Below, in pieces: positions 1 through 57,123 of a DNA stretch of 57,123 bases. The first letter of the stretch is position 1, and every line of letters begins with the position of its first letter. This DNA comes from Gaeumannomyces sp. JS-464 (lineage: Eukaryota > Ascomycota > Sordariomycetes > Magnaporthales > Magnaporthaceae): contig NGZR01000014.1 in assembly GCA_002197995.1 (NCBI GenBank), positions 1 to 57,123 of the forward strand, in the 5' to 3' direction. A program made the translations under genes and the position numbers. The notes beneath the pieces are model-generated. The model was not told the DNA's origin and searched no databases. It saw nothing but the letters and a program-made list of their open reading frames with translations.

Positions 1-115
1 CGTGTGTAGCGTGTAACGTGTGTACGTAGGTGTCGTCGTGCAGCAGCAAGTAAGCAGGGTAAAGGGGTCAAGTGTAGTGCGTAGGGAGAGTGTGTAAGAG
101 TAGTAGGTCGTAAGT
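1..115 (+). ncRNA. 3' part of first group I core in intron 5
   Basis: Collapsed text ends with GCTAGGGAGATTTAAGATATAGTC, quoted here as GCTAGGGAGA and AAGATATAGTC, the S/P7 element. The matching P, Q and R parts lie only in pass 2 at about 12640-12930 (GTTCAACGA near 12790 on the minus strand). Confidence 0.7.
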
Positions 116-292
116 GTACAGTCGTGTGTAAGGGGTGGTAAAAGTAGTAAGTGTGTAAAGTACGTGGTAGTAAAGTGTAAAGTAGTGGTCAGTAAAAAAG
201 TCGTGTGGTAGTCCGTGTAAAGGAAGTAGTGTGTAAGTGTAACGTGTGTGTGTGTCGGAGCCGGTGTGTACGACAAAGTGTGTGTGTGGTGT

Positions 293-1416
293 AGTGCCGC
301 GTGGTGTGTACCGTGGTAAGTAGGAAGTGTAAGGAGTGTCGTAAAGTCGTCGGTGCGTAAAAAGGTGTAAACCGAGTGTAGTCCACGGCGTGAAGTAGTG
401 TGTAGCCAGTCCCGTAAGTGTCGTGTGTGTGTAGCGTGTGTGTGTAAGTGGGGTGTGTGTAGAGTGGGGAGTGGGTGTACAGTGTGGGAGTGTAGTAAAA
501 AGGTGTAGTAAAGAGTCGGAGTAGAAGGTGTGTAGTCGTAGTCGTAGTGTCGTAGTACAGTGTGTAGAGGAGTAGTCGCGGGTAGTGTAAACGTAGTGGT
601 GTCAAGTCGTAGTAGTGTAAAGAGTAGGGTAAAAGTAGTAGTACGTGTACCCGTAAGTAGAAAAAGCCCGTACAGCGTAGACGTGTGGTGTAGTCAGGTA
701 GAGTCAGAGGTGTGCAAGAGGGTAGTGTAGTGTCCCGTGTGTAGTGTGTGTACAGTCACGGACGTGTGTGTGTGTCGTGTAACGAACACGTCGGTAGGGA
801 GTCAAGTAGTCACAGTGGCGTAGTAGTAGTGTGTGTGTAAGTAAGTAAGTAAAAAAAGTGTGTGTCAGGAGGTGTACCGTGTCAGGTAGCCCCGAGTGTG
901 TACAAGAACGTGTCCAGGTGTAGGTGCGTGTGTAGGGGTAGTGCAAAGTGTGTACCGTGTGTGTGTGTAAGTGAGTGTGAAGTAGGTAGGAGTGTGTGGT
1001 CGTGCGTCGTGAGGGGTGTCAGTGTGTGTGTAGTGTAAAGCGTAACGTGTGGAGTGGGTGTGGTGTGTCCAAAGTGTAAACAAAGAGTGTACAGTAGTGG
1101 TGTAGTGGTGTGTGAAGCAGTGTCAAGGTGTAGGTGTGTGTGTAAGTACGTAAGTCGAAAAAGTCACAGGTGGAGTAAAGAACGTAGTAGTGCACAGGTG
1201 TGTGGGGTGTAGGTGTCGTAAAGTCCGAGTGGTACAGAGGTGGTGTAGTAAAGTGTGTGTGTGTGTCGTGTGTGTGTCAGGAGTAGTCACCCGGTGTAGG
1301 TGGGACGTGTAAACGTGTAGTGTCAGGTAGTACAGCGTGTGAGTGTGGGTAAGTGTGTGCGGTAACGTCGTGAGCGGTGTAGTAAAAAGTCGTGTAAAGT
1401 GTGTCCCGTCGTGTAG
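293..1416 (+). CDS. LAGLIDADG homing endonuclase 2 of intron 5
   Basis: A possible start ATG is at 293-296 (MPL then LPVIGIKDSKSRAKK); one G seems lost just after it. Next come EYLAIPNSFLAFLMG and the first motif FLDGDGYIGIIKS, then LEDIAVLNYVQSILK, TARLVISRSELQEV and LFPLF. After ELPVSALGYANL follows the second motif WIVGFVCSEGSF. The end is HPLVGLKL and LRNSERYKNLKFPS, TAG at 1413-1416. Four T-run losses break the frame and are repaired by pass 2 (11338-12430). Its plan matches endonuclease 1 of the same zone. At 116-292 I see no gene or exon. Confidence 0.87.
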
Positions 1417-1689
1417 GTGTGTGTGTAGTACGTACGGTAGGTCCGTGGCGTGCGAAGCAGGTACGAAGGTACAAAGGTAGTGGTAACGTGGGTGTCGTAC
1501 GTAAGGTAGCAGGCGTAAAGCGTGTAGTCAGTCGGGTAGTAGTGTAAGTAAAGTGTCGGTAAAGTGGTGGTAGCGTGTCGTAGTCCCCGTGTAGTGTGTG
1601 TGTGTGTGTGGGTGTAGGGGAGTACAGGAAGTGTGAAGGTGTAAGTGTAAAGTGTAACGTAGAGCGTCCCGTGTAAACCAGGTAAGTGG

Positions 1690-2003
1690 GTGTGTAACGG
1701 TAAACGGGGGAAAGTGTGCAGGAAAAGTAGTGTAAGTGTAAGTACCGTCCGTAAAGTGTAAGTACAAGTCGTGCAGCGAAGAGTGTGTGAGTGAGGGTAG
1801 TGTGTGAAGTAAACAGTCAACGTAACGGTGTCAACGACGTAGTCCAGGTGCGGTGAGTGTAGTAGTCCACAAGTAAGTCGTGGACAGTAGAGTGAAAGTC
1901 CCCGCAGCCGTGTAGTGTGTAACGTGTGTAGGTGTGGTGTGTAGTAGTAGTAGTAGTAGTAGTAAAAAGTAGTAGTAAAAAGGGTGTGAAGAGTAGTAGG
2001 TCG
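1690..2003 (+). ncRNA. Second group I core of intron 5
   Basis: Core elements in order: P AATTGCAGGAAA near 1710, Q AATCTGCAGCGAAG near 1766, R GTTCAACGACTATCC near 1827 and S GAAGATATAGTC near 1988. A (TA)n run and a long T run sit in the loops. Exon 6 starts about 65 raw bases downstream. At 1417-1690 there is AT-rich intron sequence with a GCGAAGCAGTACGAAG repeat piece near 1450. Confidence 0.85.
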
Positions 2004-2068
2004 TGTGTCGTAGAGCGTGGTGAGGCGTCGTCGTGTGAAGGTGTGTGTGTGTGTAGTAAAACGTAGAA

Positions 2069-2170
2069 AGTCAGTGTGTGAGGAGGGTGTGTCAGCGGTA
2101 AAGTAACGCAACGTGTGTAAAGTAGAGTGTCGTGTGTGCAGTGTACAGTGTGTGGTAGTGTACCGTGTGT
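2069..2170 (+). CDS. cob: cob exon 6
   Basis: Codes IWGGFSVNNATLNRFF followed by ALHFVLPF, the conserved region ahead of the PEWY part of cytochrome b. Trp in IWGG is TGA. Pass 2 confirms it at 10600-10697. The exon ends in CCTTT, where intron 6 begins. Confidence 0.93.
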
Positions 2171-3966
2171 AGCGTGAAAAGAGTAAGAGGGTAGTGTAAA
2201 AGTGTGTGCCGTAAGTGTGCGTGTGGAAGACAAAAAACGTAAGACGTAGTAGTGTGTGTGGTAAAGTAAGCAGCAAAGGTAGTAAGTGTAAAAAAAACGT
2301 GTGTGTGTGTGTAGTGTGTAAGTGTAGTAGTGGTGGTGTCAACGACGTAGTACGGCAAAAGTAAAAGTACAGTGTAGTGTGGTGGTGTGTAGTAGTGAGT
2401 AGTAGGTCGTAAACAGTGTGGTCAGTGAGAGTAAGTGAAAGTAGTAGTCCAGTGTGTGTAAGTGTACGTCGTGTGTCAGCGTGGTGTGTGAGTGCGTGTC
2501 GCAGGTAAGTAGGTGTAAGACGTGTCAAGCGTGTCGCGTGGGTGCGTGTACGTGTCGGTAGCACAGGAGTAGAGTAAGTGGAGTAGTAAGTAAGTACGGT
2601 AAAGTGGTGTGGTAGTGTAGTCACGTGTCCGTGTGTTGTGTGCGTACACGTAGCAACAAAGGTCGTGTGTAAGTGTGTAAAGTCAGTAAAACGTGTAGTG
2701 ACGTAGTGTGAGGTGTGAAAAAAGTAGAAGTGTAACGTAAGACACAGTGGTGTACGTAGGAAAGAGAAAGTGTAGTAGGTACCGTGTCGGGTCCAAGACC
2801 GGAGAGTGTGTGTGTAAGGTGTGTGTGTAGGTGTGGGTCGTGTAGTAGAGTGGGTGAGGTGTAGTAGTACAAGCGTAAAAAAGTCGTAAGTGGGTGTAGT
2901 AGTAGAAGTGTGTAAGTGTGTAGGTGTAGTAACGTGTGTGTCAGTAAGTAGAGAGTGTGTAGCGTACGTGTGTCGAAGTACCGTGGTGTAAGGTAAACGT
3001 ACAGTGTGTGGGTAGTGTAGTGTGCGTAAAAGTAAACGTCAAGGTACAAGGTAAAGTGTGTGGTGTGGTGTGTAGTAAGTGTGTGTGAGGTGTAAAGGTA
3101 GTAGTGTGTAGGTGTCCGTGTGTAGTGTAAAACACAGGCGTAGTGTCGTGTGTGTGTAACCAAAAAGTAGGAGTGTAAGTCAGGTACAAGTGTGTAGTGT
3201 AGTGTAGTAGTACGTGTGTAGAAGTAGTAAGTAGTAAAAAAGGTGAGAAGTGTGTCGTACCGTGAGGGTGTAGTGTCCGTAAGTGTAGTAGTGCCGTGTG
3301 AGGTGTGTGGAAACACCAGGGGAGTAGTAAGTGAAAAAGTGGTAGTGTAGTACGTGTGTAGAGTGTGGGTGTGTAGTGTGTGTGTGGTAGGTGTGCGTGA
3401 GGGGTGTCGTGTGTGTGTACGGTGCAAGCGTAAGTAAGGAAAGTGTGTGCGTGTCAAGTGGTAGGGTCAGAGTAGGGTAAGTAGGTGGTGTGTGTAAGTG
3501 AAGTACGTAGTGTAGTGTGTAGTGTAGTGTGTGAACCGTAGGTAGAGCCCGTGTGACGTGTCACGTAAAAGCAAAGAGTGTGTAGTCAAGTGTGTGTCGG
3601 TAGTGGTCGTGTCAGGTAAAAGAGTAGTACAAAAGGGTGTAGTGTAAGTGTCGTGTGTCGTGTGTGTGAAGAGTCAGTGTAGTCCGTCGTGTACAGGGTG
3701 TAGTAAAAAAGAAAGGTGTAGTAGTCAGTCGTGAGTGTAAAAGTCGTGTGTAAAGAAGTCGTAACAAAGTAGTAAAGGGTCGTAAAGTGTGTCCCGTGTG
3801 TAACAGAGTAAGGAAGGTAGGAGGTGTCGTAGAGTGTAGAGCAAACGTAAAAAGTGTAGTAAAGTGTAAAGTGGTGTAGTAAGTAGAGAGTGGTGTGTAC
3901 GTCACCGTAGGGTGTAGTGTCGTACAAGTAAGTGTCGTGTAGTGTAGTAAAAGTAGGTAAAAAGAA
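2171..3966 (+). ncRNA. cob intron 6, group I
   Basis: Lies between VLPF and LAAL. A compact core follows the exon: AAATAAGCAGCAAAG near 2262, R GTTCAACGACTATACGG near 2336 and S GATATAGTCTAAAC near 2396. At 2420-2745 I see no gene, only repeat pieces (CTTCGCTGGTGCTTACTTCG near 2530). A LAGLIDADG ORF fills the rest. Confidence 0.8.
2746..3839 (+). CDS. LAGLIDADG homing endonuclease of cob intron 6
   Basis: An in-frame ATG at 2746-2749 opens MLLGKRNYSTFGPRP; translation could also begin upstream. The first motif is KFLVGLIDGDGYIQAKK; pass 1 has lost a base in the second DG, pass 2 (near 9901) has it. Then come LATFEYLLSKLTFG, LLKHRLFFLTKNRIN and EVIPNYMP. The second motif is NWLVGFVVAEGSFY. 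The end passes SSVKDIQKVINFF and DHYPLTGYKKES, closing at VGVLD, TAG at 3836-3839. The hairpin ACCTTCGGTCCAAGACCGGAG (first 10 bases ACCTTCGGTC) overlaps the N-terminal codons. Antisense copy at 8931-10000. Confidence 0.85.
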
Positions 3967-4781
3967 GTGTGTGTGTAGTGTGTGTAGCAGCAGTGTAGTG
4001 TGTGTAAGTGCAGTGTGTAAGTGTGCGGTGTACAGTGAGTACCGCAGGGTGTCGTAGGTAACCCGTGTAGGGTGGTGTGTCAGGGTAAGTGTAGTGAGTA
4101 GTAACAGTGTGTGCGTCCAGTAGTGTACGTGTAGTGTGTAAAGAGTGTGTAAGTGTACGTAGTAGTGTGTAGTCGTGTGTAGTAGTGTGTGGTGTGTAAG
4201 GTGCGTGTGTGTGTAGTGTCGTGTGTAGTGCCGTAAGTGTAGTCGTGGGGTGACGTCAGAAAAGTGTAGTAAGTGGCGTAACCCAAGTGCAGACACCGTG
4301 CAGCCAGTGTGGTGTCCGTGAAGTGAGTACCGTGTCGTGTCCCGTGTGTGTAGTGCCAGTGTGTGTAAGAGTCGTAGTACCGTAAGTAAAGTGTAGTGTA
4401 GGAGGTGTAGTGTGCGTAGTGTGTGTAGGTGCGTAGTGTGTGTAAGTCAGTAAGTGGCAGTGTAGCCGTGTAACGTGACGTGTAGGGTAGAGTCGTAAAG
4501 GTGTCACAAGTGTGTAGACCGTGTGTGGTCAAAAGTGTAGCGTGTGTCGTGAGTGGTGTGTGTGGTAGCCAAGTGTGTCGTGTAAGTAGTGTAAGTGCAA
4601 GTGTGGGGTGCGTAAACAGTGGTGTGAGGAGTCCAGTGTGTAGTGTGTGTGTCGGGCAAAGTGTAGCACAGCGTCGTGGTACGTGTGCACAGTGTGTGTG
4701 TGTGTAAGTAAGTGTCCGTGGTCAGTAAGGTGTGTAAGTCGAAAGTACGTGTAAGTGGAGTGTGTACGGTAGAAGGTGTAA
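3967..4781 (+). CDS. cob: cob exon 7 (3' exon)
   Basis: The clearest proof that collapsing is right: about 200 codons read almost without a break. They include ALHDTAGSSNPLGVSGNYD, TFAPYYLFKDLITIF, MPNYLGDSDNYIMAN, PMQTPAAIVPEWYLLPFY, AILRSIPNKLLGVI, GRSKGTQFRPLSKLAFW and FLILMQLGAKHVEDPF, ending IENTLMDLRRS with TAA at 4778-4781. TGA serves as Trp in PEWY. Pass 2 carries the same exon at 8040-8805. The remaining short stretch 3840-3966 is intron tail. Confidence 0.97.
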
Positions 4782-5225
4782 AAGTGAGTAGGTGTGGTGC
4801 GTAGGGTAAAACGTACAGCGTGTGTAGCAACCCCAAAGGGGGTAGCGTACCGTGGTGTGTACAGGTGTAGTAGGCGGTAGTAGTGTGTACGTGCCGTACG
4901 TAAGTAGTAAAAAGTACGTAAGTCACGTACAGTACGAAGGTAGTAAAGGGGTACAACGGTAGGGAAGTACGGACACAGGTGGTAGGCGTGCGTAAGTAGT
5001 GCGTAAGTGCGTACGTGTCGGTAGCAGTACGTGTCGGTAGCAGTACGTGTCGGTAGCAGTACGTGTCGGTAGCAGTACGTGTCGGTACGTGTCGGTACGT
5101 GTCGGTACGAAGGTACGAAGGTACGAAGGTAGCAAAAGGTGGTAAGTAGTGTGTGTGTAGTGTGTAGTGTAGGTGTGTGTGTCAAGCACAAGGTAGGTAA
5201 CGGTGTAAGTAAAAAGTGTAAAAGT
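4782..5225 (+). repeat. Hairpin-repeat spacer after cob
   Basis: No gene. From about 5010 to 5135 collapsed units TACTTCGTAGCA and then TACTTCG repeat in tandem and flip into TACGAAG, so the array can fold on itself. A CCCCAAAGGGG inverted repeat lies near 4830. The mirror copy is at 7660-8035, where the unit reads TGCTACGAAGTA. Confidence 0.85.
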
Positions 5226-5784
5226 AGTGAAAGTAGTGTAGTAGTAGAGTGTAGTGTGGGCGTGTGTAACAAAGTCGTAGTCGTGAAAGTGACGTGTGTA
5301 GCGTAAGTAGTGTACGTCACGTGTAGCAGCGTGGTGTAAGTAGTGGAGGCACGTGTGAGGTACAAGGGGTAGTAGAAGTACGTGTAGGTGGTGTGACGGT
5401 AACCCGTGTCCGTGGGCCAGTGTAAGTAGTAGAGGTCGTGTAGTGCGTAAAGGCGTGTAAGTAAAGTGAGGTGTGTGTGTACAGTGAGTAAAGCGTGGTG
5501 TGGTGTCGGTGAAAGTGGCAACCGAAGCGTGTGTGTAAGTAAGGGTAAGAGAAAGTAGAACGTAGAGGTGTAGTCGTCAGGACGTCGTAGAGTGTAAAGT
5601 AGTGAGGGAAGAGGGTGTCGGTCGTAGCGTAAAAGTGAGTAGTGAGTGGAGTAAGTGGGTCGTGTAAAAAGTAGTGGGGTGAGTAGTGGTGTGTGAGTGG
5701 GTGGGTCAGTCGTGTCGGCAGTAGTAGTGGAGGTAGACGTGGCGCCGTAGTGAGGAGTGTGTAAAGGTGGAAGTAAGTGTGTAG
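5226..5784 (+). CDS. Unknown ORF between cob and atp6
   Basis: ATG at 5226-5229 opens MKYYMDYWALTNLSEM, then LANITHLAAVNMEALEY, NPSWAINMESYAKGL, HDKAVVREMATEAFNK and SRLNMREEVRLAK. The C-terminal third turns hydrophobic (MVLKMWVMCLMVVMFG) and would form one membrane helix before GVDWRLWGFKV, TAG at 5781-5784. One frame change near 5400 is probably an indel. I recognise no family. The charged N-terminal domain plus a C-terminal anchor and the place next to atp6 make a small membrane protein possible. Pass 2 copy at 7008-7581. Confidence 0.6.
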
Positions 5785-6114
5785 GTGAGTGTAAAAAGTA
5801 GTGGTAAGTAGTACGCGGTAGGTGTGTGCGTAGTAAAGTAGTAGTAGTAGTGTAGTAGTAGTGTGTACAGCGTAGTAGGCGGTAGTAGTGTGTACGTGGT
5901 CGTACAGTAGTAAAGAGTAGTCACGTACCACCCGTGGCAGTACAGAAGGTAAACCGTGACGTGCGTGTACGTGTCGGTAGAAGGGGGGGGTGGGTAGTGG
6001 TCAAAGGTAGAGCAGTGCGGGTACAGCCGGTGTAGTAGTGTGTGTGTAGTGTGTAGTGTAGTGTGTGTGTGTCAAGCACAAGGTAGGTCGTGTGTAGTAG
6101 TAAAAAAAAAAGTA
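5785..6114 (+). repeat. Spacer with hairpin repeats before atp6
   Basis: No gene. Contains a (TA)n stretch, a CAGCTATAGGCGTATATTTACTG element also present near 4861, a TGCTTACTTCGTAGAAGG piece with a G run near 5976-5990, and a TTTTTCAAGCACAAGTAGT element repeated from 5185. The shared elements at 4861-4950/5861-5930 and at 5185/6065 suggest the ORF was inserted between duplicated spacer copies. Mirror copy at 6690-7008. Confidence 0.75.
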
Positions 6115-6383
6115 AGGTCGTGGTGTGTGAAGTGTGTGTGTGTACAGAAGGTCGTGTGAGGTCCGTCGTAGAGTCAAGTGTGAAAGTGTAGAGAGTGTGT
6201 AGTGTGAGGTGTGTAGAGTAGTACCGTAGGTAGTGTAGTAGTGTGTCACGTGTGTGTCGTAGTGTACGTAAGTAGTGTGGTGTGTCGTAGTGTGTAACAA
6301 GTAGGACGTAGGTAGTGTGTAAGTGTGTAGTGTACCGTGTGTGTACGTAACGTAGTGAGTAAAGTGTAGGTAGGTAAGTAAGT
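6115..6383 (+). CDS. atp6: atp6, 5' part (cut by end of insert)
   Basis: Subunit a of the F0 proton channel of ATP synthase. With pass 2 as correction the start reads MSGLNFFTEVLSPLDQ, then FEIRDLLSLD, FHFSITNI and TNYDKLVSNNW. The SPLDQFEIRDLLSLD block is the typical fungal N-terminus. The start ATG has lost its T in pass 1 and is clear in pass 2 at 6679-6682. The gene is cut because the insert ends here, so it says nothing about truncation in the organism. Confidence 0.88.
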
Positions 6384-6433
6384 AGTGTGTGTCGTGTGTG
6401 TCGTGTGTGTGGTCGTAGTGTGGTGTGAGAGTC
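6384..6433. other. Turn 1: probable degraded SMRTbell adapter
   Basis: Arms on both sides are reverse complements after collapsing (AATTAGTAAGTAATAAT against ATTATTACTTACTAATT). Between them lie about 31 collapsed bases absent from both arms. They contain TCTTTTC and TTGTTGAGA in the order found in the PacBio hairpin adapter, but about 14 bases are missing. The match is clearly poorer than at 29626-29686, so the identity is probable only. Confidence 0.6.
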
Positions 6434-6682
6434 AGTGTAGTGTACGTGTACGTAAGTGTCAGTAGGTGTAGGTACGTCAAAAGGGTAGTAGTAACGTAGT
6501 GTAGTAGTACGTAGTGTCCGTGTAGTGTGTACCGTAGTGTGGTAGTAGAAGGTGAAAAGTAGTCCGTAAGTACGTGGGTAGTAGTCGTAAACGTCAAGTA
6601 AAGTCGTCGTAAGTGTGTCAAAGTGTGAGTCGTAGAGGACGTCAAGACGTGTCGTGGTAAAAAAAGTGTCAAACCAGACAGT
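6434..6682 (-). CDS. atp6: atp6, 5' part, antisense copy
   Basis: Second reading of the atp6 start. ATG is at 6679-6682 on the minus strand, and it restores the start codon lost in pass 1. The part nearest the adapter is noisier. Confidence 0.85.
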
Positions 6683-7007
6683 GTAGTGTGTGTGTGTGTG
6701 TGTAGTAGTGTAAAGACGTACGTGTGGTGCGTGTGAAAAAACGTAAGTAAAGTAAAAAGTAGTAACGGCGTGTACCGCAGTGCGTCGTGTGACAGTACCA
6801 CCCCCCCCGTGTCGTACGAAGGTAAGCAGGTCAGGGTGTGTACGTGTCGTGGTAGTGCCAGGGTGGGTAGGTGAGTAGTCGTGTGTAGTAGTGTAGGTAG
6901 ACAGGTAAAGTAGTACGCCGTAGTAGCGTGGTAAGTAGTAGTAGTAGTAGTAGTGTGTGTAGTAGCAAACGTACGCGGTAGTAGTGTACAGTAGTGTGTG
7001 TAAGTCA

Positions 7008-7581
7008 CGTAAAGTGTGTAGTGTCCACGTGTGTAAAGTCCGTCAAGTAGGCGCCAGGTCGTACGTCCAGTAGTAGTGCCGAAGAGTGACCACCAGTCAA
7101 ACAGTAGTCACCCAGTAGTGTGTGTGTAAGACCAGTGTAGTCCAGTCAAGTGTCAGTGTGTGTAGCGTAGTAGTGTGTGTGACGAACCGTCGTGTCCCGT
7201 CAGTAGTGTGTAAGTCGTAGAGGTCCGTGAGAGTAACGTCGTAGGTGTCGTAGTGTCGTCGTGTACCGTGTAGTGTAAAGCGTGTCGGGTGTGCCAGTGT
7301 GTCACGAACAACAGCGTGTGTAGTCAGTGGTAAAAACGTCAGTGTGTAGTGTAAGCCGTGTGTAGCAGTAAGACGTCGTAGTAGTGTAAGTGGCCCAGGA
7401 AGGGGTGTACGGTCAACACGTAAGGTGTGTGTCGTAGTACCCGTGTGGTACGTCAAGGTGCCGTCCAGTAGTGTAACAGCGTGCGTAAGGTGAGGTAAGT
7501 AGTGTAGCGTAAAGGTCAGTGTGTCAGAGTAGAGTGTGTGTGTAAAGCCCAAGTAAGTCGTAGTAGTAGTAGTGTGTCAGT
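7008..7581 (-). CDS. Unknown ORF, antisense copy
   Basis: Second reading of the ORF at 5226-5784 with start at 7578-7581 and stop at 7008-7011. It keeps the same frame through the C-terminal hydrophobic segment. Two independent readings with the same frame argue that the ORF is real coding sequence. Confidence 0.58.
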
Positions 7582-7659
7582 AGTGTGTGTGTAAGTGTGT
7601 GTGTAGTGTAACGGTGTACGTACGTGTGGTGCGTGTGAAAAACGTAAGTAAAGTAAAAA

Positions 7660-8035
7660 GTAGTGTACACGTGTGTGTGCGTACGTGTCGGTACGTGTCG
7701 GTACGTGTCGGTACGAAGGTACGAAGGTACGAAGGTAGTGCGTACGAAGGTAGTGCGTACGAAGGTAGTGCGTACGAAGGTAGTGCGTACGAAGGTAGCA
7801 GTGTAGCAGTAGTGTAGCAGCCGTACACGTGGTGGTCCGGTAGTGTCCCGTACGGTGTGGTACCCGTGTGTAGTACGTGTCGGTAGTGGTAGGTGAGTGT
7901 AGGTAGTGTGTGTGTAGTAGTGTAGGTAGGCAGGTAAAGTAGTACGCCGTAGTAACGTGGTAAACAGGGTAGCGTACCCCGTGTGTGGGGTGTGCGTAAA
8001 GCGTGGTGTGTGTGTACCGTAGCACAACGTAGTCA
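7660..8035 (-). repeat. Hairpin-repeat spacer, antisense copy
   Basis: TGCTACGAAGTA units in tandem at about 7735-7800, preceded by TACTTCG/TACGAAG units. After collapsing it is the reverse complement of 5010-5135, but in raw letters the two look unrelated. Confidence 0.85.
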
Positions 8036-8039
8036 GTGT

Positions 8040-11000
8040 GTGTAACGTGTCGTACGGTAAAGTCCAGTGTAAAGGTAGTGTGTGTCGAGTGTAAACGTGT
8101 AGTGACAGGAAGTGTAGTGTAAAACAAAAGTGGTGCAAAGGTACAGAGCGTGGTGCGTAAGTGTGTGCCCGAAGTAAAAGTAAGTGGAGTCCGTCAACAG
8201 TGTGTAGCACCCAAGTGTGCAGTGTAAGTAGTGTAAGAAAGTGTGGCGTACAAAACAGTCAGAAAGCGTAAGTGTGTGTGACAAAGGGTCGTAAAGTGTG
8301 GTGAACCGTGTGTAGAGTCGTACCGTAAGGTCAGGTGTAAGGCGTAAGTGCCAGTGTAGTGAGTGTAAAAGTAGCACGTAAACAGTAGCAAGTAACGTCC
8401 GTAAGTAAGTGTGTAGTGTAGGGTAGTAGAGTCGTGTAAAAGTGGCAGTAAAAGGGAAGAAGGTAGTCAGTGTCAGGAACAAGTGGCGTGCAGGGTGGTC
8501 GTGCAGTGTGGGTGTAGCCAGTGTAGTAGTGTGTGTGTGTGAGGTCACCCAGAGTAAGTGTAGGCAGTAAAGAAGTACAAAAGCACGTGTAAACAAAGTA
8601 GTAAAGAGTAAAGTAGTAGGTAAGTGTAAAGTCGTGTGTAAAGTAAGGTAAGTAGTGGAGCAAAGTGGTGTGTGTCGTAGTCAGTAAGTGTACCGTGAAA
8701 CACCGTAAAGGGGTGTACGTAGAACCGTGCGGGTAGTCAGTGGTAACGCAAGTGTAAAGTGCAGTGTAAACGTAAGTGCGTGCGTAAAAGTAACAAGTGT
8801 CGTGTGTGTGTACGTAGTGTGTGTGTAGTAAGTAAGAAGTGTAGTGTGGTAGAAGTAACCGTAGGGTGAGGTAAACAGTCGTCGTGTAGTAACAGTGTGT
8901 AAGTGTAGTAAGTGTGTGTGGTGTGTGCGTCGTAAGTCGTAGAACGTCCGTACGTGTCCGTGTAGTCGTGGTGTAAAGGGAAAGTGTGTAGACCGTGTGT
9001 GTAGTGTGTGGTGTAGAGTGTCGTGTGTAAAGAGTGTGTGTAAGTCAGAGTGAGTAGTAACGTGTGTCGTGTGTGTGTGTAGTAACCGTGGTAAGAGGAG
9101 TAAGTGAGTCGTGTCAAAAGAAAGAAAGTGTAAGTAACCGTGTGTGTGGTAGTAGTCGTGTGTACGTGAAGACAGTACGAACAAGTGTGAGTAAAGTCGT
9201 GTGTGCGTGTGTAGGTGAAGGTCAAGGGCGTCGTACGTAGGGTGTCAAAGTAAGTAAAGTAAAGTAGGTAGTGTCAGTGTAAACACGTAGTGTACCGTAG
9301 TCGTGACCGTACAGTGTGAAGCAAAGTGTGTCCGTGTAGTGTAGCGTGTGCACGGTAAAAAGAACCCGTCAGCAACGTACAAAACCAAGTAAACCAAGTC
9401 GTGTGTAAAGGTAGTAAGTACAGTGTGTGTGTCAGTGTAGTAGTCCCCGTGGGTGGTGTGTCCAAAACGTCAAGGCAGTAGTAAGTGTAGGAAGTAACCG
9501 TCAGGGTAGAAAGTGTCGTCACGTGTGTGTGTGTAGTAGTAGTAGTGTCGTAAAGGTAGTAGTAAGTAGTAAGTGTGGTACGTGAGTGTAAGTCCGTAGT
9601 GTGTGTGTGGGTGTAAAAGAAGTAGCCGTGGTGGTGTGTGTAAGTAACAGAGGAACGTAAAAGTAGTACGTGTGTAACGTCAAAAGTGTAGTAAAAACAA
9701 AGTGTGTACGTGTGGTACGTGTGAGGTGTGTAGTGTGTGTAGCAAGTAAGTACCAAAAGTGGTAGGTGTGTACGTGTAACAGGGTAGTGTCGAAAGGTAG
9801 CGTAAAGTCGTCGTAGTGTAGTGAAAAGGTGTAGTAACGTAAAGTGTAAAGTGTCGTAAGTAACCAGTGTAGAGTGTGTGTGTAGCGTGTGGTAGTAGTA
9901 ACCAGTCACCAGTCGTAGTAAGACCAACGTAAAAACGTGTAAAAGTCGTCCGGGTCGTGTGGACCGAAGGGTACGTAGTAAGTGTGTCGTCGTGTGTCCG
10001 TAGGTAACAGTGGTGGTCGTGTAGGTGTAAGTGTCGTAGTGTGTGTGTCAACGTCAAGTAGGTCAGTAAGGTGTGTGTAGTGAGTGTGTAAAGTGTAAAA
10101 GACGTGTGTGGTGTGCGTAGGTGGTAGCAAAAAGGAAAGGTGAGTAAGTACAACAGTGTGTACGGTAGTGTAGTGTAGTAGTCCAGTGTAGTCGTAGTCC
10201 GTGGTGCGTACGAAGGTAAGCACCCAGCGAAGCGTGTGAAGGTCGTGTAACGTAGTGTACGTGCGAAGCAGTCAAACAGCGTGAAGAGGTAAGTGTAAAA
10301 GTGGAGTAGTAGTGTGTCAGTGTAGTCGTCAGTGACAAGTGTGTGTAGACGTAGTAGTCAGTAGTAAAACACAAGTAGTAGTGTGTGTGTGTAGTGTGTG
10401 TGCCGGTAGTAGGTCGGTGTGAACACAGTAGTAAGTGTAAAAGTAAAAAAAAGGTGTGTGTGTGTGTGTAAGTAGTACGTGTGTGCGTGCGTGTAGTGTG
10501 TACAAAAGTAAGTAGGTCGTGTAGGTGTAGTGTGTGTGTCGTGTCCAAGCAAGTGTAGGCAAAGTGTGTAAGTACCGTCGTGTAGTCGTGTGTCAGCGTA
10601 AAGGGTAAGTACAAAAGTGGTAAGTGCAAAGAAGTCGTAGTGTGTAAAGGTGTGCGGTGTAGTGTGTACGCGTGAAACCGTCCGTCAAAGTGAGTGTGTC
10701 GTGTGTGTAGTAAAAAACGTGTCAAGAGAGCCGTCACAGCGTCGTAGAAAGACGTAGTAGTCGTGTCAACCGTGTGTGTGTAGTAGTAGTGTGTGTAGTA
10801 GTAGTAGTAGTAGTAGTAAACAACGTAAAGGTGTAAAGTAAGGCGTGCGGGAGTGTGTCAGTCGTAGTGGTCCAGAGTGTAGTGTGGTGGAGTAGTAAGT
10901 CACGCACGTGGAGTAGGTCGGTGTGAACGGTGTAGGTGTGAGTGTGTAGTGTCAAAGTACCGTCAGTCAAAGTCGTGTCGCGTGCAGAGTGTGGTAGTGT

Positions 11001-46135: not shown

Positions 46136-46149
46136 TAGTGTGTGTAGTA

Positions 46150-47415: not shown

Positions 47416-48039
47416 TGGTAGCCAAAGTCGTGTGTAAGTGTGTACCGTAAGTCCAGGCGTAGCCACCCCAGGTGGGTAAGTAAGTGTACGGCGTGTCGCG
47501 TGCGTGTAGTAGTGAAAGTAAGGAGAGGTGGCAGGCAAGGGTGTGTCCCAGGAGGGGTGGTGCGCGTACGAAGGTAGTACGAAGGTGCGTACGTAGCCGT
47601 CGTGTAGGTGGTGTGTAAAGTCAAGGTAAAGTGTAGTGGTACACGTAGTACGTGTAGTCGTGTAAGTAAAGAGTAAGTCGGTAGTGTGTAAGTAGTAGGT
47701 AGTAGGTGCCGTGTGGTAGTGTGTCAAGTCAAGGTACAGAGGTACGTGTGAGTGTAAAAAAGAGTGTCCGACGTGGTACAGTGTAAGCAGTCAGTGTGTC
47801 AGACACCCACCGAGTGAACCAGGTCGTGGTCGCGAGTGGTGTGTACGTCCACCAAGGGGTCGTAAAAGCGTAAACAAACGTGTGTGGTGTGACCGTCGTG
47901 TGTACAGTCAGGTAGTGTGCGTAGTAGTAGCAGCGTGTCGTGTGTGTGTAGTGTAGTAGTGAAGTGTCACAGGTAAAAGTGTGTACGTGTCAGTAGTGTG
48001 TACGTAGTAGTAACGTAGTAGTAGTAAGTGTAGTAGTAG

Positions 48040-48900
48040 TGTGTAAAGTGTAGTGTGTGTAGTGGTGTGTAAGTGTCGGGGTAGTGTAGTGGTAAGGAGT
48101 GTACGTAGTGTGTGTGTCGTGTAGAGTCGTGTCCAGTGGAGTGTCGTGTGGTCAGAGTAGTAAAGTGGTCAGTAGTGTGAGTCCGTGTAGCACCGTGCGT
48201 AAGTCGAAGTAGAAGCCGTGTAAGAGTGTGAAAGTGTAGTCCGTGTGTAAAGCGTGTGTAACGTAAAAGTGTAAACAAGTCAGTGTAGTAGTAGTAAAAG
48301 AAGTGGGTGTGAAAGTAGTGTGTAAACCGTGTGTACCGTACGTGTGTACGTGTCCGTGTGTGTCACGTGTAGTGTCAAAGGGCGTAAGCGTAAAGGAGGT
48401 CAAAGTAGTGTGTACCGTAGTACAGTGTCGTGGGTACACGGTGTGTAAGTGTGGGTGTGTGTCAGTAGTCAGTAAAGTCGGTGGTAGTCAAGTGTAAAGC
48501 GTGGGTGGTAGGGTGTCAAGGTAGAGAAGTCGTGTACCAGTGTGTGTGTAGTAAGTGTGTGTCCCGTGTGTACGACCCAAGTCGTAGGTAGGTGTAGTAA
48601 CAGGGTAGTGTGTGTGTGGAGTGTACAAGTAACCGTAAAGTCGTGAAAACAGTGTGTAGTGGTAAAAAGTAAAAGTAGTAGTGTGTACAGTGCAAACCGT
48701 GTCGTGTGAGTAAAAAGGTAAGTGTCGTAGGTACCGTGGTACCAGGGTAGTGTGTGTGTGTGTGTCAGCGTGTGAGCCGTCGTCCAAGGTAAAGAACCAA
48801 AGTAGTGTAGAGAGTAAGTAGTAGTCGTAGTAGTGTAGTGCGGGGTAGGCGGAGCCGTACGTACGTGTGTAGTAGTGGTACAGTGTGTAAGGTCGTGCGT
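48040..48900 (-). CDS. Intron 4 second LAGLIDADG ORF, pass 4 copy
   Basis: Third reading of 43480-44312; GSLLGEAQAE is near 48762-48800. Confidence 0.72.
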
Positions 48901-48999
48901 GTACGTGTGTAGGTAGGGTACGTGAGTACGTCCCGTGTACGTAAGTAAACCCGTAGTGTAAGTAAGTCGTAAAAAAGTGTGTAAAGTAGTAAACGTAGT

Positions 49000-50195
49000 A
49001 CAGTGTGTGGGACACGTAAGTGTCAGTACAGTGTGTCAGTGTGTGTGTGTAGTGGTCGTAAGTAGGTAGTGTGTAGTGTGTAGTGTAAAGTGTGTAGCGT
49101 GGTGAGTAGAACGTAGTACCGGTGTGTACGTCGTGTGTGTGTAAGAGGTAGAAAGTAAAAGTGTAAGAGTAGTGTGAGTCCAAGTGTGTAGCGTAGTAGT
49201 AAGGGAGTGAGTGAGTCGTGGAGAGTGAAAAAAGTAAAAGTAACGTGTGGTGTCAAGTGACAAGGGGGGTCAGTAGAGTGAGTAAGCGTAAGTGTGAGTA
49301 ACCCCCGTGTGTAGAGGTCGTGGAGTGTAAGTAAGTCGTAGTGTAGACGTCGTGAGTCCGTGGTAAGTCAGGTAAGTGAGTGCAGCGTGTGTGTAAAAGA
49401 GTGTAACAGTGTAGTCAGTGTCCGTGACGTGTGTGTGTAGGTGTGAGTAAAAAGCAGAACCAGGTGTGTGTGTGTAAACCAAAAGAACCCGTCCGCCAGT
49501 GTGGTAAAACCCACGTAAGTCAAGTGGCAGTAAGTAAGTCGTAAGTGTGTGTACGTAAAGTCGTGTGCACAGAGTGTGTGTGCAACAAACACAGGGTGTC
49601 GTGTAAAAGTGTAAAGTGTCAGTCCCAAGTGAAGTAAGTAGAAGTGTGTGTCCAGGTAGTAGTAAGTGTAACGTGTGAAAAGTGTGGTGTGTGCACGGTG
49701 TGGCGTAGGTGTAAGAAGTAGTGGTGTCAGTGTGTGTGTGTAAGTGTAGAGGGTAGTGTAGTAACGTGGTAAAGTAAAGTCGTGTGTGTGTGTGAAAAGT
49801 AGTACGTCGTGACGTGTGGTGTCGTCGTGTGTGTGGCCAGTCAGTAGAAGTAAGTCGTAGTGTGTGTGTCCGTACGTCCGTAAAGGTGTCGTGTACAAAA
49901 GTACGTCGTAAGTAAAGGTGTAAAGTCGTCGTAACAGTAGAGTAGTGTACAAGCGTAAACGAAGTGTCGTAAGTAGGTACGTGTCGTAGCCAGAGGTGTG
50001 TAGTGTGTGTGGTGTAGTAGTGTGGTGTGTGTGTGGTGTCACCGTAGTAGTCGAAAGTAGTCCAGTCGTCCAGTCCAGTAAAGCCCAGTAAACAGTAGCC
50101 AGTAAAGTGTGTGTGTAGTCGTGGGTAGTAGTGTACGTGTAAGTCCAGCAAAAGGTGGTGAAAGTGGTAGAAGTAGGCGTAGTAAGTAGTGTGTG
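49000..50195 (-). CDS. Intron 4 first LAGLIDADG ORF, pass 4 copy
   Basis: Third reading of 42161-43303; GFMDGDGYF is near 50040-50090, next to exon 4. Confidence 0.78.
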
Positions 50196-50238
50196 GTACC
50201 CCAGTAGGTGACAGTGTGTGACCAGTAAGGGTAAAACA
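50196..50238 (-). CDS. cob: cob exon 4, pass 4 copy
   Basis: Third reading of VLPYGQMSLWG. Confidence 0.85.
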
Positions 50239-51199
50239 GTACAAACGTGTACGTAGTGTGTAGAGCGTGTGCGTACGAAGGTACGTAAAAGTAAGCGTAG
50301 AAGTAACGTGTGTGTAAGTGTCGGTAGTAGTGTCGTAGTGTAGGTGTAAGTGTGTAGAGTAGTGTGTAAGTGTAGCGTAACAGTGTGTGTGTGTCGTGCG
50401 TACGAGTGTACGGCGTACCGTAGTACAGCGTACGGCGTAGTAGCGTACAGCGTACGGCGTACGCAGTAAAGGGTACAACGTACCGTGTGTGTGTGTAGTG
50501 CGGTAGCCGTCAAGTGTAGTAGCCGTACCAGCCCGTGGTCACGCGTGTGTAGTAGTGGTAGTGTGTAGTAAGTAGTAAGTAGTAGTGTAGTAACAAAGTG
50601 TACCGTGCAAGAAGAAAGTGTAGTAGTAGTCGTAAGTAGTAAAGCAAGTAGCAGCGCAGTAAGTAAGAGAGTGTAACCGTGTAAGTAGTGTAACCAGTAG
50701 CGTACCGTAAGTAGTAGTCGTAGTGGTAAGTGTGGTAGTGTGTGTGTGTCGGTGTGTACGTACGTAGGTACGCGTAGTGTGGTAGGTGTGGTGGGTACGA
50801 GTAGACGTGTGTACCACCAAAGTGTAAGTAGTAGTAGTAGTGTCGTGTAGTAAGTGTAAAAAGTAAGTGCGTAAAGTAGTGTGTAGTGTACAGGTAAAGT
50901 AGTGTAGTCGTGTGAGAGTGTAGTAGTAGTAGTGTAGTAGTGTGTAGTAGTAGTGTAAGTGTAAGTGTAAGTGTAAGTAGAGCGTGTGCGCCGTGTCGTA
51001 GTCAGTGTGAGTAAAGTCGTAGTGTAAACCGTCAGGGTCGTGGCGTAAGCCAAACGTGGTAGTAGTAGTAGTGTCGTCCCGTAAGTAAACCGTAGTGTGT
51101 GTGTAGTGTAGTAAGTCAGTGTGTAAGTAGTGTAGTAGTGTAGTGTAGTGTAGTCGTGTGTAAAAGTAAAGTGTGTAAGAGTGTAACCGTGTCAAACCG

Positions 51200-52100
51200 T
51201 GTCAGTGTCGTGTGAGTAGTGTAGTGTACCCAAGAGTCGGGGTAAGTGTCGTGTAAAAGTGTAGAAGTGTAGGGAGTAGTCGTACAGTAGTGTCCCCAGT
51301 GTGTAGTAGTGTGTGTGTAAGTGTGCGTAGACGTGTCAGTGGTGTGAAGTAACAACGTAGTAAGGTAAGTGTGAGGGAGTCAGAAAGTAAGTAGTAACGT
51401 AACGTGTGTAGTGTGTGTCAGCGTACACCCGTGTAGCAGTAAAAAGTCGTAGTGTGTGTCAGTGTCAAAAAAAAAGTCAAAGTGTCAGTGTAGTAGTGTG
51501 TAGTAGTAAAGAGTGTGTCAGTAGAGTGGTGGTGGTAGTAGTAGTACGTCCGTCGTAGTGTAGCGTGAAGTGTAGTGTGTGTGAGAGTAAGTAGTGGTAG
51601 TGTGAGTGTGTACCGTGAGTCGTAAGTGTGAAGTAGTGTGTAACCCGTAGTCCGTGTGTCGTAAGTAGTACGTCACGTGTGTGTGGTGTGTGGTCCGTGT
51701 CGTGTAAAGGGGTAGTACAGTGTGGTGTGTAAGGTGTCACGTGTAAGTCCGGTAGGTGTAGTAGTAAGTGTCGTGTCGTGTCCCGTGTCACAGTAAAAGT
51801 AGTAGTGTGTAGTGTAGCAGTGTAGTGTACGTAGGTAGGTAGGTAAGTGTAAAGTCCCAGTCCAAAGTAAGTCAGTACAAGGTGGTGTGTCAGTAGTGTA
51901 GAAGGCGAGTAAAGTCAAAAGTGTGTAAGTCGTGTACAGTCAGTGTGTAGTGTGGTCAGTAGTGTGTAAAGTGTACGTAGCGTAAGTGTGTGTGGAGTCA
52001 GTGTAAAGTGTAGGAGTCCACAGTCGTAGTAAGTAGTGTAGTAAGCAAGTAAAGTAGGTGTGTAAGTAGTAAGTGTCAAGTCCGTCCGTGTCGTACGTGA
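51200..52100 (-). CDS. Unknown intron 3 ORF, pass 4 copy
   Basis: Third reading of 40200-41100, limits inferred from alignment with pass 2. Confidence 0.4.
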
Positions 52101-52839
52101 GTGTCAACAAAAGTGTGTAAAGTCCAAAGTCAACGTGTGGTGTGTAGTAGTCGTGAAAGTCAAAAAACGTAGTCAAAGTAGTAGTCAGTCACAAAAAGTG
52201 TAGTAGACGTACAAGTCCGTGTAAAAAAAGTAAAAAAAGAGTAAAGTGTAGTGTAGTAGTAAGTAGTAGGTAAAGTAAAACAAGTAGTGAGTAAGTGTAG
52301 TGTGGTGTGTGTAGTGTGGTCAAAAGTAGTGGTGTAACAGAGTGTAAGTAAAAAAAGAGTGTAAAAACAAAAACAGTAGTGTGTAGTGTCGGTAGTCACG
52401 TAAAAGTAAAGTCAGTGTCAGCGTAAGTAAAAGGTGTGTGTAGTAGTGTGTGTGTGTAAAAAAAAGTAGTAGTGTGTCGTAAAGTAGTGTGTGTAGTGTG
52501 TGTAGAGTGTAAGTGTGTGTGTCGTGTGTAGTAAACGTAAAAGTAAAAAAAGTGTAGTACGTAAAAAAAGGTAAGTAAGTACGTGTAAACACAAACACCA
52601 AGAAAACCAGTAAGTACCAAAGGGTAGTGTAAAAGTAAAAACGAAAAAAAGTAGTAAAGTAGTAAAAAGTAAAAAAAGAAGTAAAAAAAACCACGTGTAG
52701 TAACGTGTCCGTGTGTGTGTGTGTACAAGTAGTGTGTGTCGTGTCAACGTGTAGTGTCACCCGTAGTAAGTGTCGGAGTAGTCGTCGTAGAGTGTGTACA
52801 GTAAGAAAAAAAAGGTCAACGTAAGTGTGTGTGTGTGGT

Positions 52840-52919
52840 GCGAAGCGCGAAGCGCGAAGCGCGAAGCGCGAAGCGCGAAGCGCGAAGCGCGAAGCGCGAA
52901 GCGCGAAGCGCGAAGCGCG
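52840..52919 (-). repeat. GCGAAGC tandem array, pass 4 copy
   Basis: Same array as 19919-20001. Nearly the same copy number is read in each pass, so the array length is real. Confidence 0.93.
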
Positions 52920-54379
52920 TGTCGCAGTAAAAAAGGAGTAAGTAGTAAAAGAAGTGTACAAGGTAGTAAGTGTAGTGTAGGTAAAAAGTAAAGTAAAGTA
53001 AAAGTAAAGAAGTAAAAGAGTACAAGAGGTAGTAGTAGTAGTAGTAGTGTAAGTGTAAAGACAGTAAAAACCGTGTAGTGTGTGTAAAAGTGTCCGTGTG
53101 AACAAGTACAAGGGTAAGTAAGTAGTAACAGAACGTGTGTGGTAAAGTAGTCAGGTGTAGTAAAGGGAGTGGTGCGGAAGGAGGTGGTGAGTACAGTAGA
53201 GTAGTGTGTGTCGTACAGTAGTAGTAGTAGTAGTGTAGTGTAGTGTAAAAGTGTAGGGTGTAGGTAAAGACAACCAGTACCACCAGTGTAAAGCGTGTGT
53301 CGGTGTGTAAGTCGTGTAGAAGTACACCGTGTAAACGTGTAGTGTAGGTGTGTCGAAAACAGGAGCAGGAGGTACCCGTAGTGTAAGTAAGCCGTAGTGA
53401 CCGGTCGTACGTCGGTGTGCGTCGTGTGTACAAGTAAGTAGTGTAGTGTAGTAGTGTACGTGACGTGTAGAGTCCGCGAGTGTACCCAGTGTCCGTAGTG
53501 TGCGTAGAAGTCGTGTAGTGACGTGTGGTGTACCGTGTACAGTGAGGTAAGTGTACGTGTCAGTCCACGTGTAGTAGGTGTGTGTGTCAACGTAGTAGCG
53601 TGTGGTACCAGTAAGCGTGTGTAGGGCGTGTACCCGGAGGTGTGTGAGTCAGTAGTAAGAGGCAGAGAGTAAGAGTGTGTGTAAGTAGTAGTCGTGTAAG
53701 TCCACCGTAGACAAAACAAGTGTAGACAGTAGTACGTGTGTGTAGTAGTAAAAGGGCAAAGTGGTGTAGTAGTGTGTAGGTGTAGTAACCGTAAGTCGTG
53801 TAGGGTAAAAAAAAGTAGTAGTAAAACGTAGCGTAAGTGCCGGTGTAGTGTAAAAAGTAGTGTGACGTAAGTAGAGACAAGTGTGCGGCGTAGTAGTAAC
53901 CACGTAAAGTGTCAGTCGTCGTAGTCGTGTAACGTAGTCGTGTGTAAGTGTAACGTAAAAGGTGTACGACGTGGTGCAGTGTAAGCAGCAGTGTGTCAGC
54001 CACCCAGTCAGGTGAACCAGGTCGTGGTCGCGAGTGTGTGTAGTGGAAAACCGACGAGTCGTCGTGTAGTACAAAGTGTGTAGGTAGTACGTGTGAGTCG
54101 TGTGTCACGTAACAGTGTGCCAAAGAAACGGTAGTGTGTCGTGTCAAGTGAGTCGTGTGGTAAGACCAGTGTCGTGGTGTGTAAGGTGTGTGTAGTGTGT
54201 GTGTGTCCAGTAAAGTGTGCAGTAAAACGTGTGTAGTGTAACAGGACGTACGACCACAAGTAGTGTAGTGTGTAGTGTGTAAGTGTAACAACGTCAGTGT
54301 GTCGTGTGCCCGTACGAAGGTAGGCAGTGTCAAGTAAGTGTACGTAGGACGTGTGTGTGTAGGTAGGCGGAGCCGTACG

Positions 54380-55330
54380 TCGTGTGTGGTAGTAGGTGTG
54401 TGTAGGTAGAACAAGTGTGTAAAGCGTGTGTGTGACGGTGTGTCAAGTGTAGTACGTAGTGTAAAGTGTCACCAGTAAACAAGTAGTGTGTGTAAGTGTC
54501 GTGTGTGTACGTACGAGTAGCGTGTAGAAGTGTCGTGTGTGTCAGTGGTGTGTGTGTAAGTCCCGTGTCGTGTCGTAGTAGTAAGTGTACGTGTGTGTGT
54601 GTCGTAGTGTGTAAAGCGTGGTAGCGTGTGCGCACGTCAGTACGTCGTCGTAGTAGGTGTGTGTAACAGAAAAAGTGTGTGTACCAAGTAGTGTAAGGTG
54701 CACCGTAGTGTCGCGTGGTCGTACGGGCGTGTCACGTGGTAAGTGTAGGTGTGTCAGTGTGTGTAGTCCGTAGGTGTACGTGTCGTGGTAGTGGTGTGTA
54801 GTAACCAAAACGTAGAGTCCGTGCGTGTCAGGTGTAAAAGTGGTGTAGTAAGTCAGGGTAAAAGAGAGTGTGTAGTAGTAAAAAGTCGTGTCGTAGTAGT
54901 GTGTAAGTGTGTCGTGTAGTGTAGTGTGTGTCGTGTGAGTGTAACGTAGTGTGTCAGGAAAGTAAGTGTCGTAAGACAAGTAAAAGAAAAAGTGTAGTGC
55001 AAACCAGTACGTGTAGTGTAACGTGAAGTGTGTGTGTAGTGTGTGTACGTACCAGGTCAAAGTAGTAGTGTAAAGTGACGTGTGGTAAAGTCGTGTGAAG
55101 TGTAAAGTCGTGTCCAGCCGTCGTCGCGAGTCCGAAGGAGTACAGGACGTAGGGCCGTGTGGCCCGTGTGGCCGAAGGGGTAGAAGCAGAGTCCGTAGTG
55201 GTAAGTAACGTGTAAAGTGTCGTGTGTAGTGTCAAGTAGTCAGTAGTAAAGTACCGCGTAAGGTCCGTGTGTGTGGTCGTCGTGTGTAGCGTAGTAAGTG
55301 TGTGTACGGTACGTGAAGTCGTGTCAGTGG
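54380..55330 (-). CDS. Intron 3 GIY-YIG ORF, pass 4 copy
   Basis: Third reading of 36850-37870; YYIGSA is near 55175-55206. Confidence 0.72.
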
Positions 55331-55689
55331 TAAAGTGTAGTCGGTAAAGTGAAAACGTGGGTGTGTAAGAGTGTGTGTAGAGTGTGTAAGTAAAAGTCAG
55401 TGTGTAGTGTAGTAGTCAGGTGGTGTACCAGTGTAGTGAGTAAGAAGAAGTAGGTAGTCGTGTGTGTAGTGTAGTGTGAAAGGTGTGGTAGGTGTCGTAG
55501 TGTAGTAAGTGTGGTAGGGTAGTAGGTAGCGAAGCGTAGGTAAGTGTGTGTAGGTGTGTGTAGCCCCGTAGGCCCAAGGTACGTGTAGGTCCGTGGGGTG
55601 CGTGCACAAGCGTAAAGCGTAGGGTGTGGTAAGTGTCGTGTGTGTAAGTAGTGGTGAGTCGGTGTGTGTGGGCGTAGTGGTCGTAAGGT

Positions 55690-55925
55690 AACCCAAGAAC
55701 CGTAGTAGCCAGTCAGTAAGAAGTAAGGTAGTAAGTGTGGTACCGTAGTAACGTCAAACGTAAAGGTGTCGTAGGGTGCGTGTGTAGTAGTGAGTCCGGT
55801 AAGTACAGTACCGTCGTGTCCAAGTAGTGGTAAAGTACACGTAAGAAGAAAAGGCAGAAGCGGGTAGTGTACGTAGTGGTAAAGTAACGGAGTAAGGTCA
55901 ACCAGTGTAGAGTACGGTCGTCGTC
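55690..55925 (-). CDS. cob: cob exon 3, pass 4 copy
   Basis: Third reading of MRDVSNGW to GFLGY. Confidence 0.87.
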
Positions 55926-56329
55926 AGTAAGTCAGTAGTGTAGTGTAGTCGTAGTCGTGTGTAACGTAAGCCCGTAGACGCACGTAGTCGTACGGGCGTG
56001 TAGAGTGAAAAAAGAGTAGTGTGTACCCGTGTAGTAGTAAACGAGTGTGGGTAGTCCAAGGTAACGAGTGTACAAGGTAGTGTACGTGCGTGTGAGTGTG
56101 TAAACCGTAAGTGGTCGTAGCGTAAACGTAGTGTGGTGGTGTAAGAAGACGTAAGTGTAAAGTGTAAAGGGAGTACAAACAGACGTAACGGTAAAGTGTG
56201 TAGGGTACGGTGTAGGTAAAGTGTGTAGGGTACGTAGTGTGGTAGTGTAGAAAGTAAAGGTAGTGTGTAGTGTAGTGTAGTGTGTCGTACGTAGTAGTGT
56301 AAGTCAGTGTGTGTAGTGTAACGTGTGTA

Positions 56330-57123
56330 GAAGAAAGTAAGTAGTAACGCGTCGTCGTAAAAAGAGTGTAGTGTACGTAGTCGTAGTAGTAAGTGTGTGT
56401 GTAAGTAGGTAACAGTCGGCACAGTGTGTGTAAGTGTGTGTCGACAAGGTGTAAACGGTAGTGGAAGCAGTACGTCAACACGTAGGTGCCAGTGTGTACA
56501 GGTAGTCAGAGACGTACCACGGCGTACGTGAAGTGTGTGACGTAGTGTGTAGGTGTGTAGTGTAAGTGGTGGTGTCGTGTAAGTGTGTGTAAGGTAAGGT
56601 GGTGTCAGGACGTGAAAGTGTGTGTGTAGGGTCCGTCGTCAAGTGTGTAGTCGTGTGGGTCGTCCGTCGTGAAGTGCGTGTAAAACCGTAAAGGAGAACC
56701 CGCCGTGTGTGTCAAAAGTAGTGTGGTACGTCAGGGGTGTAAGTAAAGTCGTAAAGTAAGTAGTGTGTGTCGTCGAAGTAAGAGTGTGTCGTGTGTCGTG
56801 TAGTCACAAGTACGTCCAAGAGTGTGTCAAACGTGAAAACCGTGCGGTAACCAGTAGTGTGTAACGTAAGTGCGTCGTACAGTAGTAGCACGTAGTAGTG
56901 TGTGTGAGTCGGCAAGTGTAGTAGTGAGCGTAAACGTAAAAGTAGTCGTAGTAAAGACGGTGTGTAGAGTAAAGTCGACACGTACGTGTCCGTACAGTAA
57001 CGTGTGTGTACCGTGTAGTGTAAGTAGTGTGTAGTCCAACGAGTAAAGTGTCCAGCCGTGTACCGTGTGTGTAGTGTGTCGTGTGTGTACAAGTGTGTCC
57101 CACGTGTGTGGTAGTAGTCAGCA
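56330..57123 (-). CDS. Intron 2 GIY-YIG ORF, pass 4 copy, cut by window end
   Basis: Third reading of 35115-35941; the N-terminal GIY part near 57000-57060 is the last gene text before the window ends. Confidence 0.75.

Follow-up and report, generated by a model that had tools for sequence, protein, structure and literature searches.

An extra G before nearly every T: a contig of fungal mitochondrial DNA that is probably a sequencing artefact

Contig NGZR01000014.1 of the Gaeumannomyces sp. JS-464 assembly (GCA_002197995.1; C6 below), whose complete 57,123 bases form the window analysed here, is probably a sequencing artefact, namely fungal mitochondrial DNA (mtDNA) in which an additional G has been written before T, likely through faulty base calling of single molecules on the Pacific Biosciences (PacBio) RS II before adapters were removed. 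The evidence lies in an almost exact letter rule that also governs nuclear DNA whose plain copies stand in the same assembly, in a chain of inverted passes over the same inserts, and in a hairpin adapter that itself obeys the rule. The strain is a reed endophyte with a published assembly of 53,151,282 bp in 80 scaffolds (N50 7.46 Mb), sequenced on the PacBio RS II and HiSeq 2000 and assembled with FALCON, SOAPdenovo2 and HaploMerger2 (PMC5543644). In contig C30 an RPB2 frame shares 98% identity, across 94% of the frame, with a protein of Gaeumannomyces hyphopodioides.

Results

Throughout the window (1-57123, plus strand) T is preceded by G in 15,006 of 15,016 cases, and the other dinucleotides ending in T number 7 (TT), 2 (CT) and 1 (AT), which bears out an earlier note on this DNA that had called all three essentially absent. 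The ten exceptions stand at 2637, 12531, 21367, 22764, 23218, 24743, 25527, 26285, 27857 and 43132; by comparison, 200 shuffles of the window's letters gave a mean of 9,545 exceptions (minimum 9,386), so that compositional bias is ruled out as the cause and the rule is genuine, lying far beyond what chance would give. Replacing GT by T, an operation referred to here as decoding, leaves 42,117 bases (A 15,117, T 15,016, C 6,192, G 5,792) with a normal strand composition, A being close to T and G close to C. Dinucleotide strand asymmetry falls from 0.57 in the raw letters to 0.06 after decoding in one repeat pass; the value for the whole decoded window is 0.017, a figure flattered by the window's palindromic structure.

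The rule extends well beyond this contig. The assembly examined comprises 53,005,781 bases in 34 contigs, from each of which letters were sampled (at least 200 bases), C6 alone being complete. Judged on these samples, 20 of the 34 contigs are coded (C3-C8, C11, C13-C20, C22 and C25-C28; 612,897 bases together), a scale of about 613 kb where the earlier note had dealt with a single record. All 20 are among the 25 contigs shorter than 150 kb, and they divide evenly in orientation: in ten G precedes T, and in the other ten A is followed by C, the form that the rule takes when read from the opposite strand. In the samples of C3, C4 and C5 A always stands before C, with two exceptions, while C7 has T after G, and 15 further coded contigs were recognised from 400-base samples. 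Coded contigs can be told from the plain stretches sampled by a simple threshold, more than 0.95 of their Ts following G (or of their As preceding C), and outside C6 the G is missing before 4 of 12,914 Ts in 24 loci, of which two overlap and whose first bases were excluded. The rule is absent from the samples of C2, C9, C10, C21, C24 and nine large contigs. In plain contig C9, positions 1001-1400 have a GC content of 0.23 and an open frame of 133 amino acids under genetic code 4, which looks, to the eye, like the DNA polymerase B of a mitochondrial plasmid and has no match in Pfam.

Plain counterparts of coded nuclear DNA are present in the same assembly, with which the decoded letters of three of the 20 coded contigs were compared. 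Decoded C19, by eye the end of the 18S ribosomal RNA (rRNA) with internal transcribed spacer 1, matches plain ribosomal DNA (rDNA) in C10 at four places (98%), and decoded C28 matches a single place on the 9.6-Mb contig C12 (96%); the nuclear rDNA contigs C16 and C19 and the chromosomal stretch in C28 are thus coded, with normal copies in C10 and C12. Five base-by-base alignments of decoded with plain letters gave identities of 98, 93, 98, 99 and 96% (four of the five being of the same rDNA stretch in two contigs). Undecoded, the identity was 81 and 80% at the two loci aligned, and six other collapse rules were rejected, having reached at most 83% on one locus (L053). The presence of these plain nuclear copies alongside the coded ones excludes a biological code. 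The earlier note had read the rule as a hidden code and as a feature of mtDNA, and on both points the chromosomal and ribosomal contigs C16, C19 and C28 speak otherwise: they carry the same fault, which marks it as an artefact. In C16, which carries rDNA as well, the decoded sample at 1001-1400 has a short tandem repeat of some five copies at its end.

For the mtDNA of C6 itself, a 400-base decoded query returned no match in the assembly, an empty answer that is uninformative. No plain cytochrome b turned up in the 34 contigs, the coded contigs holding the only cytochrome b found among them, and COX1 is represented there by two interrupted matches on large contigs, these being the two mitochondrial genes searched for. 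These COX1-like pieces, each with an internal stop, lie on the chromosome-sized contigs C31 (2170651-2170854) and C33 (374184-374543) and are likely nuclear copies of mtDNA.

Self-BLAST resolves the decoded window into a chain of inverted repeats (decoded 1-9409, 9832-34018 and 25935-42117). The first of them (decoded 1-9409, centre near 6405; positions 1-12710 of the window) consists of two opposite passes over one mtDNA stretch, 95.8% identical over 9,585 columns. Decoded 9832-34018 is inverted on itself at 96.5% identity by self-BLAST and 95.4% by global alignment: pass 1, over an insert of about 12.1 kb decoded, occupies 13297-29625 on the plus strand, pass 2 returns along the opposite strand of the same insert at 29687-46122 (minus), and pass 3 resumes the direction of pass 1 at 46179-57123 (plus), where the contig end cuts it; with pass 1 it shares 96.8% identity across 8,187 decoded columns. 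By count from self-BLAST the distinct mtDNA in the window comes to about 17 kb, the remainder being repeated passes, and we infer that the assembler put it together from two or more inserts. What the window holds is roughly 17 kb of mtDNA traversed in alternating directions, and no complete mitochondrial genome; the earlier note had spoken of a mitochondrial genome, and the mitochondrial content it had recognised is there, in the form of overlapping palindromic reads of part of one.

The second inverted repeat has at its centre (29626-29686, plus strand) a SMRTbell hairpin adapter that is itself written with G before T. Scored against what we take to be the SMRTbell adapter sequence, the decoded letters reach 56.5 at this place, with 31 as the next best elsewhere and a background of mean 14.8 and standard deviation 3.8 over 1,200 overlapping windows. 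In the raw letters of the same positions the score is 93 for the adapter in coded form (next 60.5) and 25 for the uncoded adapter (next 22). The centre of the first repeat (6384-6458, plus strand) holds a weak, unproven adapter remnant whose score lies within a background reaching 31, and that of the third (46123-46178) no recognisable adapter. A garbled adapter together with inverted passes points to a fault before adapter trimming. In the sample of coded contig C4, decoded positions 1-850 form an inverted repeat (94.9%) with no clear adapter at its centre.

Beyond this assembly, the coded adapter core gave no matches in a viral contig collection, in which an uncoded adapter piece was found once: viral contig IMGVR_UViG_3300046167_000019 has an exact uncoded PacBio adapter piece at 2348-2375, near the stretch end, where it was probably left untrimmed. 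The exact coded forms of two 16S rRNA motifs had no match each in prokaryote genome contigs, in a search made without a positive control.

The manner in which the coded letters depart from their plain copies bears on the step at which the fault arose. Among 1,711 plain Ts, 37 were lost together with their G, 3 left the G standing alone and 2 appear without a G (a third T without G sits at a locus edge and is excluded from the count); independent loss of G and T would give about one joint loss where 37 are seen, and the two letters of a GT unit act as one event. Nine of the ten substitutions relative to the plain copies are swaps between G and T, and the six from G to T all adjoin a T, as if the consensus had worked on letters that were already coded. 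The disagreement between passes over one insert is about 3 to 5%, seemingly more noise than correction with normal reads would leave in a high-copy locus, which suggests correction with few reads, presumably only coded ones.

Decoding brings mitochondrial genes into view. A Pfam scan covering all 29 decoded frames of at least 90 amino acids, on both strands and under code 4, placed four above the curated cut-off, one being cytochrome b and three LAGLIDADG endonucleases. The cytochrome b frame (8045-8520, minus strand; 123 open codons once decoded) matches PF00032 at 1.2e-22 and residues 273-380 of yeast cytochrome b at 2.3e-29 (PDB 1ezv chain C), and is a C-terminal fragment. Its mirror copy at 3967-4781 (plus), for which the earlier note had claimed some 200 unbroken codons, is indeed cytochrome b, and is broken over three frames as would be expected of a noisy read. 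The endonuclease fragments comprise a LAGLIDADG_2 at 15119-15553 (minus; PF03161, 2.5e-17) and two LAGLIDADG_1 at 31237-31637 and 31927-32374 (both plus; PF00961, 1.4e-13 and 9.9e-10); the earlier note had counted nine endonuclease frames, where three pass the cut-off. Four more frames have matches below the cut-off (LAGLIDADG_1 twice, DIPSY and TMEM156), those to DIPSY and TMEM156 probably being due to chance, and the other 21 of the 29 have no Pfam match.

ARAGORN finds a tRNA-Arg (acg) twice in the decoded letters, as mirror copies at 29315-29404 (minus) and 29887-29982 (plus), and none in the raw window; the earlier note had spoken of a foldable tRNA. The start of atp6 reported with it fared less well: the motif at decoded 4871 (about 6525-6681, minus strand) is one that we take to be a possible atp6 start, and it has no match in Pfam or PDB. 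Searching after decoding, the check proposed with the original observation, thus recovers cytochrome b, LAGLIDADG and tRNA-Arg and succeeds where a search of the undecoded window does not; mitochondrial genes are present after decoding, and before it none appeared within the searches made.

The raw letters are nonetheless full of open frames. They contain 216 stop-free stretches of at least 90 amino acids under code 1, and 10 under code 4 of which the longest spans 11,452 codons. On the raw minus strand, over any frame, there are 2 TAA, 2 TAG and 579 TGA triplets: TAA and TAG are nearly lacking because A is there nearly always followed by C, and since TGA is a codon in code 4 the strand remains open for up to 11,452 codons. 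Such a strand is a trap for gene finders and invites false genes. None of six long raw frames contains a Pfam family, and one raw frame compared with 5.8 billion proteins has no relative at an E value of 0.001 among 7,995 candidates scored, so that ordinary proteins were rejected as an explanation of these frames; Rfam gives no matches in the raw window, to group I introns or any other family, and RNA families were rejected likewise. The warning that pipelines would report false proteins from this record is plausible given the 216 long stop-free stretches, and for the one frame compared, the lack of any relative means that no deposited false protein was seen.

Discussion

A fault in base calling could have produced the window in the following manner. 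In a minority of molecules, each T incorporation may have been recorded in two dye channels and written in a fixed order, G then T. The adapter, being equally garbled, would likely have been missed, so that the read kept its back-and-forth passes, and coded reads, unable to overlap normal ones, would have been corrected and joined by FALCON only with one another to give phantom contigs. Multi-copy loci such as mtDNA and rDNA would supply most of the coded reads, and the resulting contigs, resembling nothing, would pass organelle and contamination screens alike. Normal mitochondrial contigs, for their part, are often removed before deposit. We lean, if slightly, towards a more general statement: that this is an undescribed and deterministic single-molecule failure, in which every T event is called GT in a subset of molecules, to which adapter trimming, read overlapping and contamination screening are all blind, and whose phantom contigs stay in public genomes.

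Several observations weigh against a base-calling origin. In blocks where passes disagree by more than 10%, none of 349 Ts lacks its G, nor does any of 613 in a decoded copy with 7% error (L054), and a nearly error-free rule of this kind is cleaner than an optical effect would lead one to expect and is in keeping with a digital substitution. A clear adapter stands at one of the three repeat centres, with a weak score (26) at another and none to speak of (13) at the last, and 8 loci from 6 other coded contigs yielded one further small inverted repeat (in C4) and no clear adapter. Among the literature matches listed (titles and abstract openings) there is no description of such a failure.

A digital corruption, in which T was turned into GT when some of the read files were converted or processed as text ahead of assembly, would readily account for a rule that is almost exact and indifferent to local noise, for the behaviour of G and T as a unit, as letter substitution would give, and for coded contigs standing 10 to 10 in orientation, which fits corruption at the level of reads. 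However, read files are normally written after adapters have been cut, and the window keeps inverted passes at three centres and an adapter at one; moreover, a wholly corrupted file should give many single-copy nuclear contigs, whereas one coded sample (C28) was so placed among the three of 20 coded contigs compared. Such corruption is conceivable and, on this balance, rather doubtful, and on present data a base-calling fault and a digital replacement within a batch of reads are not fully separable. Had the replacement been made on the finished contigs, after assembly, a simple letter swap would likewise give nearly this pattern, but it would have had to strike only small contigs, half of them on the other strand, and to leave ten exceptions in C6. 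It would also leave unexplained why a stretch already in C12 has a second, separate contig (C28), and it fits poorly with the noise of the passes, which seems too great if normal reads had served to correct this high-copy DNA, all of which makes a late replacement improbable.

Two further explanations would preserve some of the window as biology. The palindromes might be genuine, belonging to an mtDNA that is linear or concatemeric and contains inverted repeats, with only the extra G artefactual, and the absence of a recognisable adapter at two of the three centres would be in keeping with this. Yet an adapter occupies the centre of the largest repeat, and past a second turning point, which lies about 12.1 kb (decoded) further along, a third pass repeats the first, as a circularised SMRTbell template gives, so that real palindromes appear very improbable. 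A real molecular feature, whether T written as GT by an organism or organelle or G inserted by an editing-like process, might be entertained because no plain cytochrome b turned up in the 34 contigs, COX1 is present only as two interrupted pieces, and the plain AT-rich contig C9 was seen over 400 bases only. But the same rule holds in nuclear rDNA and chromosomal DNA with plain copies in the same assembly, it is present in the sequencing adapter itself, and it follows the read in both strands of one insert, which ties it to the direction of reading rather than to either strand of the genome. The plain nuclear copies and the coded adapter refute a natural code or editing, and we give a molecular origin next to no credence.

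Faulty base calling of single molecules before adapter removal accordingly remains the likely source of the window, which then holds no new biology and serves as a warning about data quality: it seems that 20 contigs (613 kb) in a public fungal assembly are hardly recognisable to a plain similarity search. If the raw reads show the same rule, the base-calling failure is possibly common to other early PacBio assemblies.

Among the nearest known counterparts are PacBio reads in which an adapter was missed, about 1% of reads according to PMC3504050. Forward and reverse passes of one insert succeed each other in them with the adapter in between, and the window likewise has such passes, with a clear adapter at one of three turning points; those reads have a normal base composition, whereas the adapter here is garbled by G before T. 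With its cytochrome b, LAGLIDADG genes, tRNA-Arg and low GC content, the decoded window resembles the mtDNA of filamentous ascomycetes, and it differs in being a noisy, palindromic assembly of reads from part of such a molecule and not a genome. Random insertion errors of single-molecule real-time (SMRT) sequencing similarly introduce extra bases into raw single-molecule calls. Ordinary SMRT insertions are scattered, however, and mostly vanish in the consensus, whereas those of the window are tied to one base at more than 99.9% and survive it. Nucleotide-insertion RNA editing, known from the mitochondria of kinetoplastids or Physarum, offers a biological likeness in that systematic insertion shifts reading frames and renders the record unreadable if taken literally; that editing acts on RNA at chosen sites, whereas the insertion described here stands in a DNA record, before nearly every T, and extends to nuclear DNA and to the sequencing adapter.

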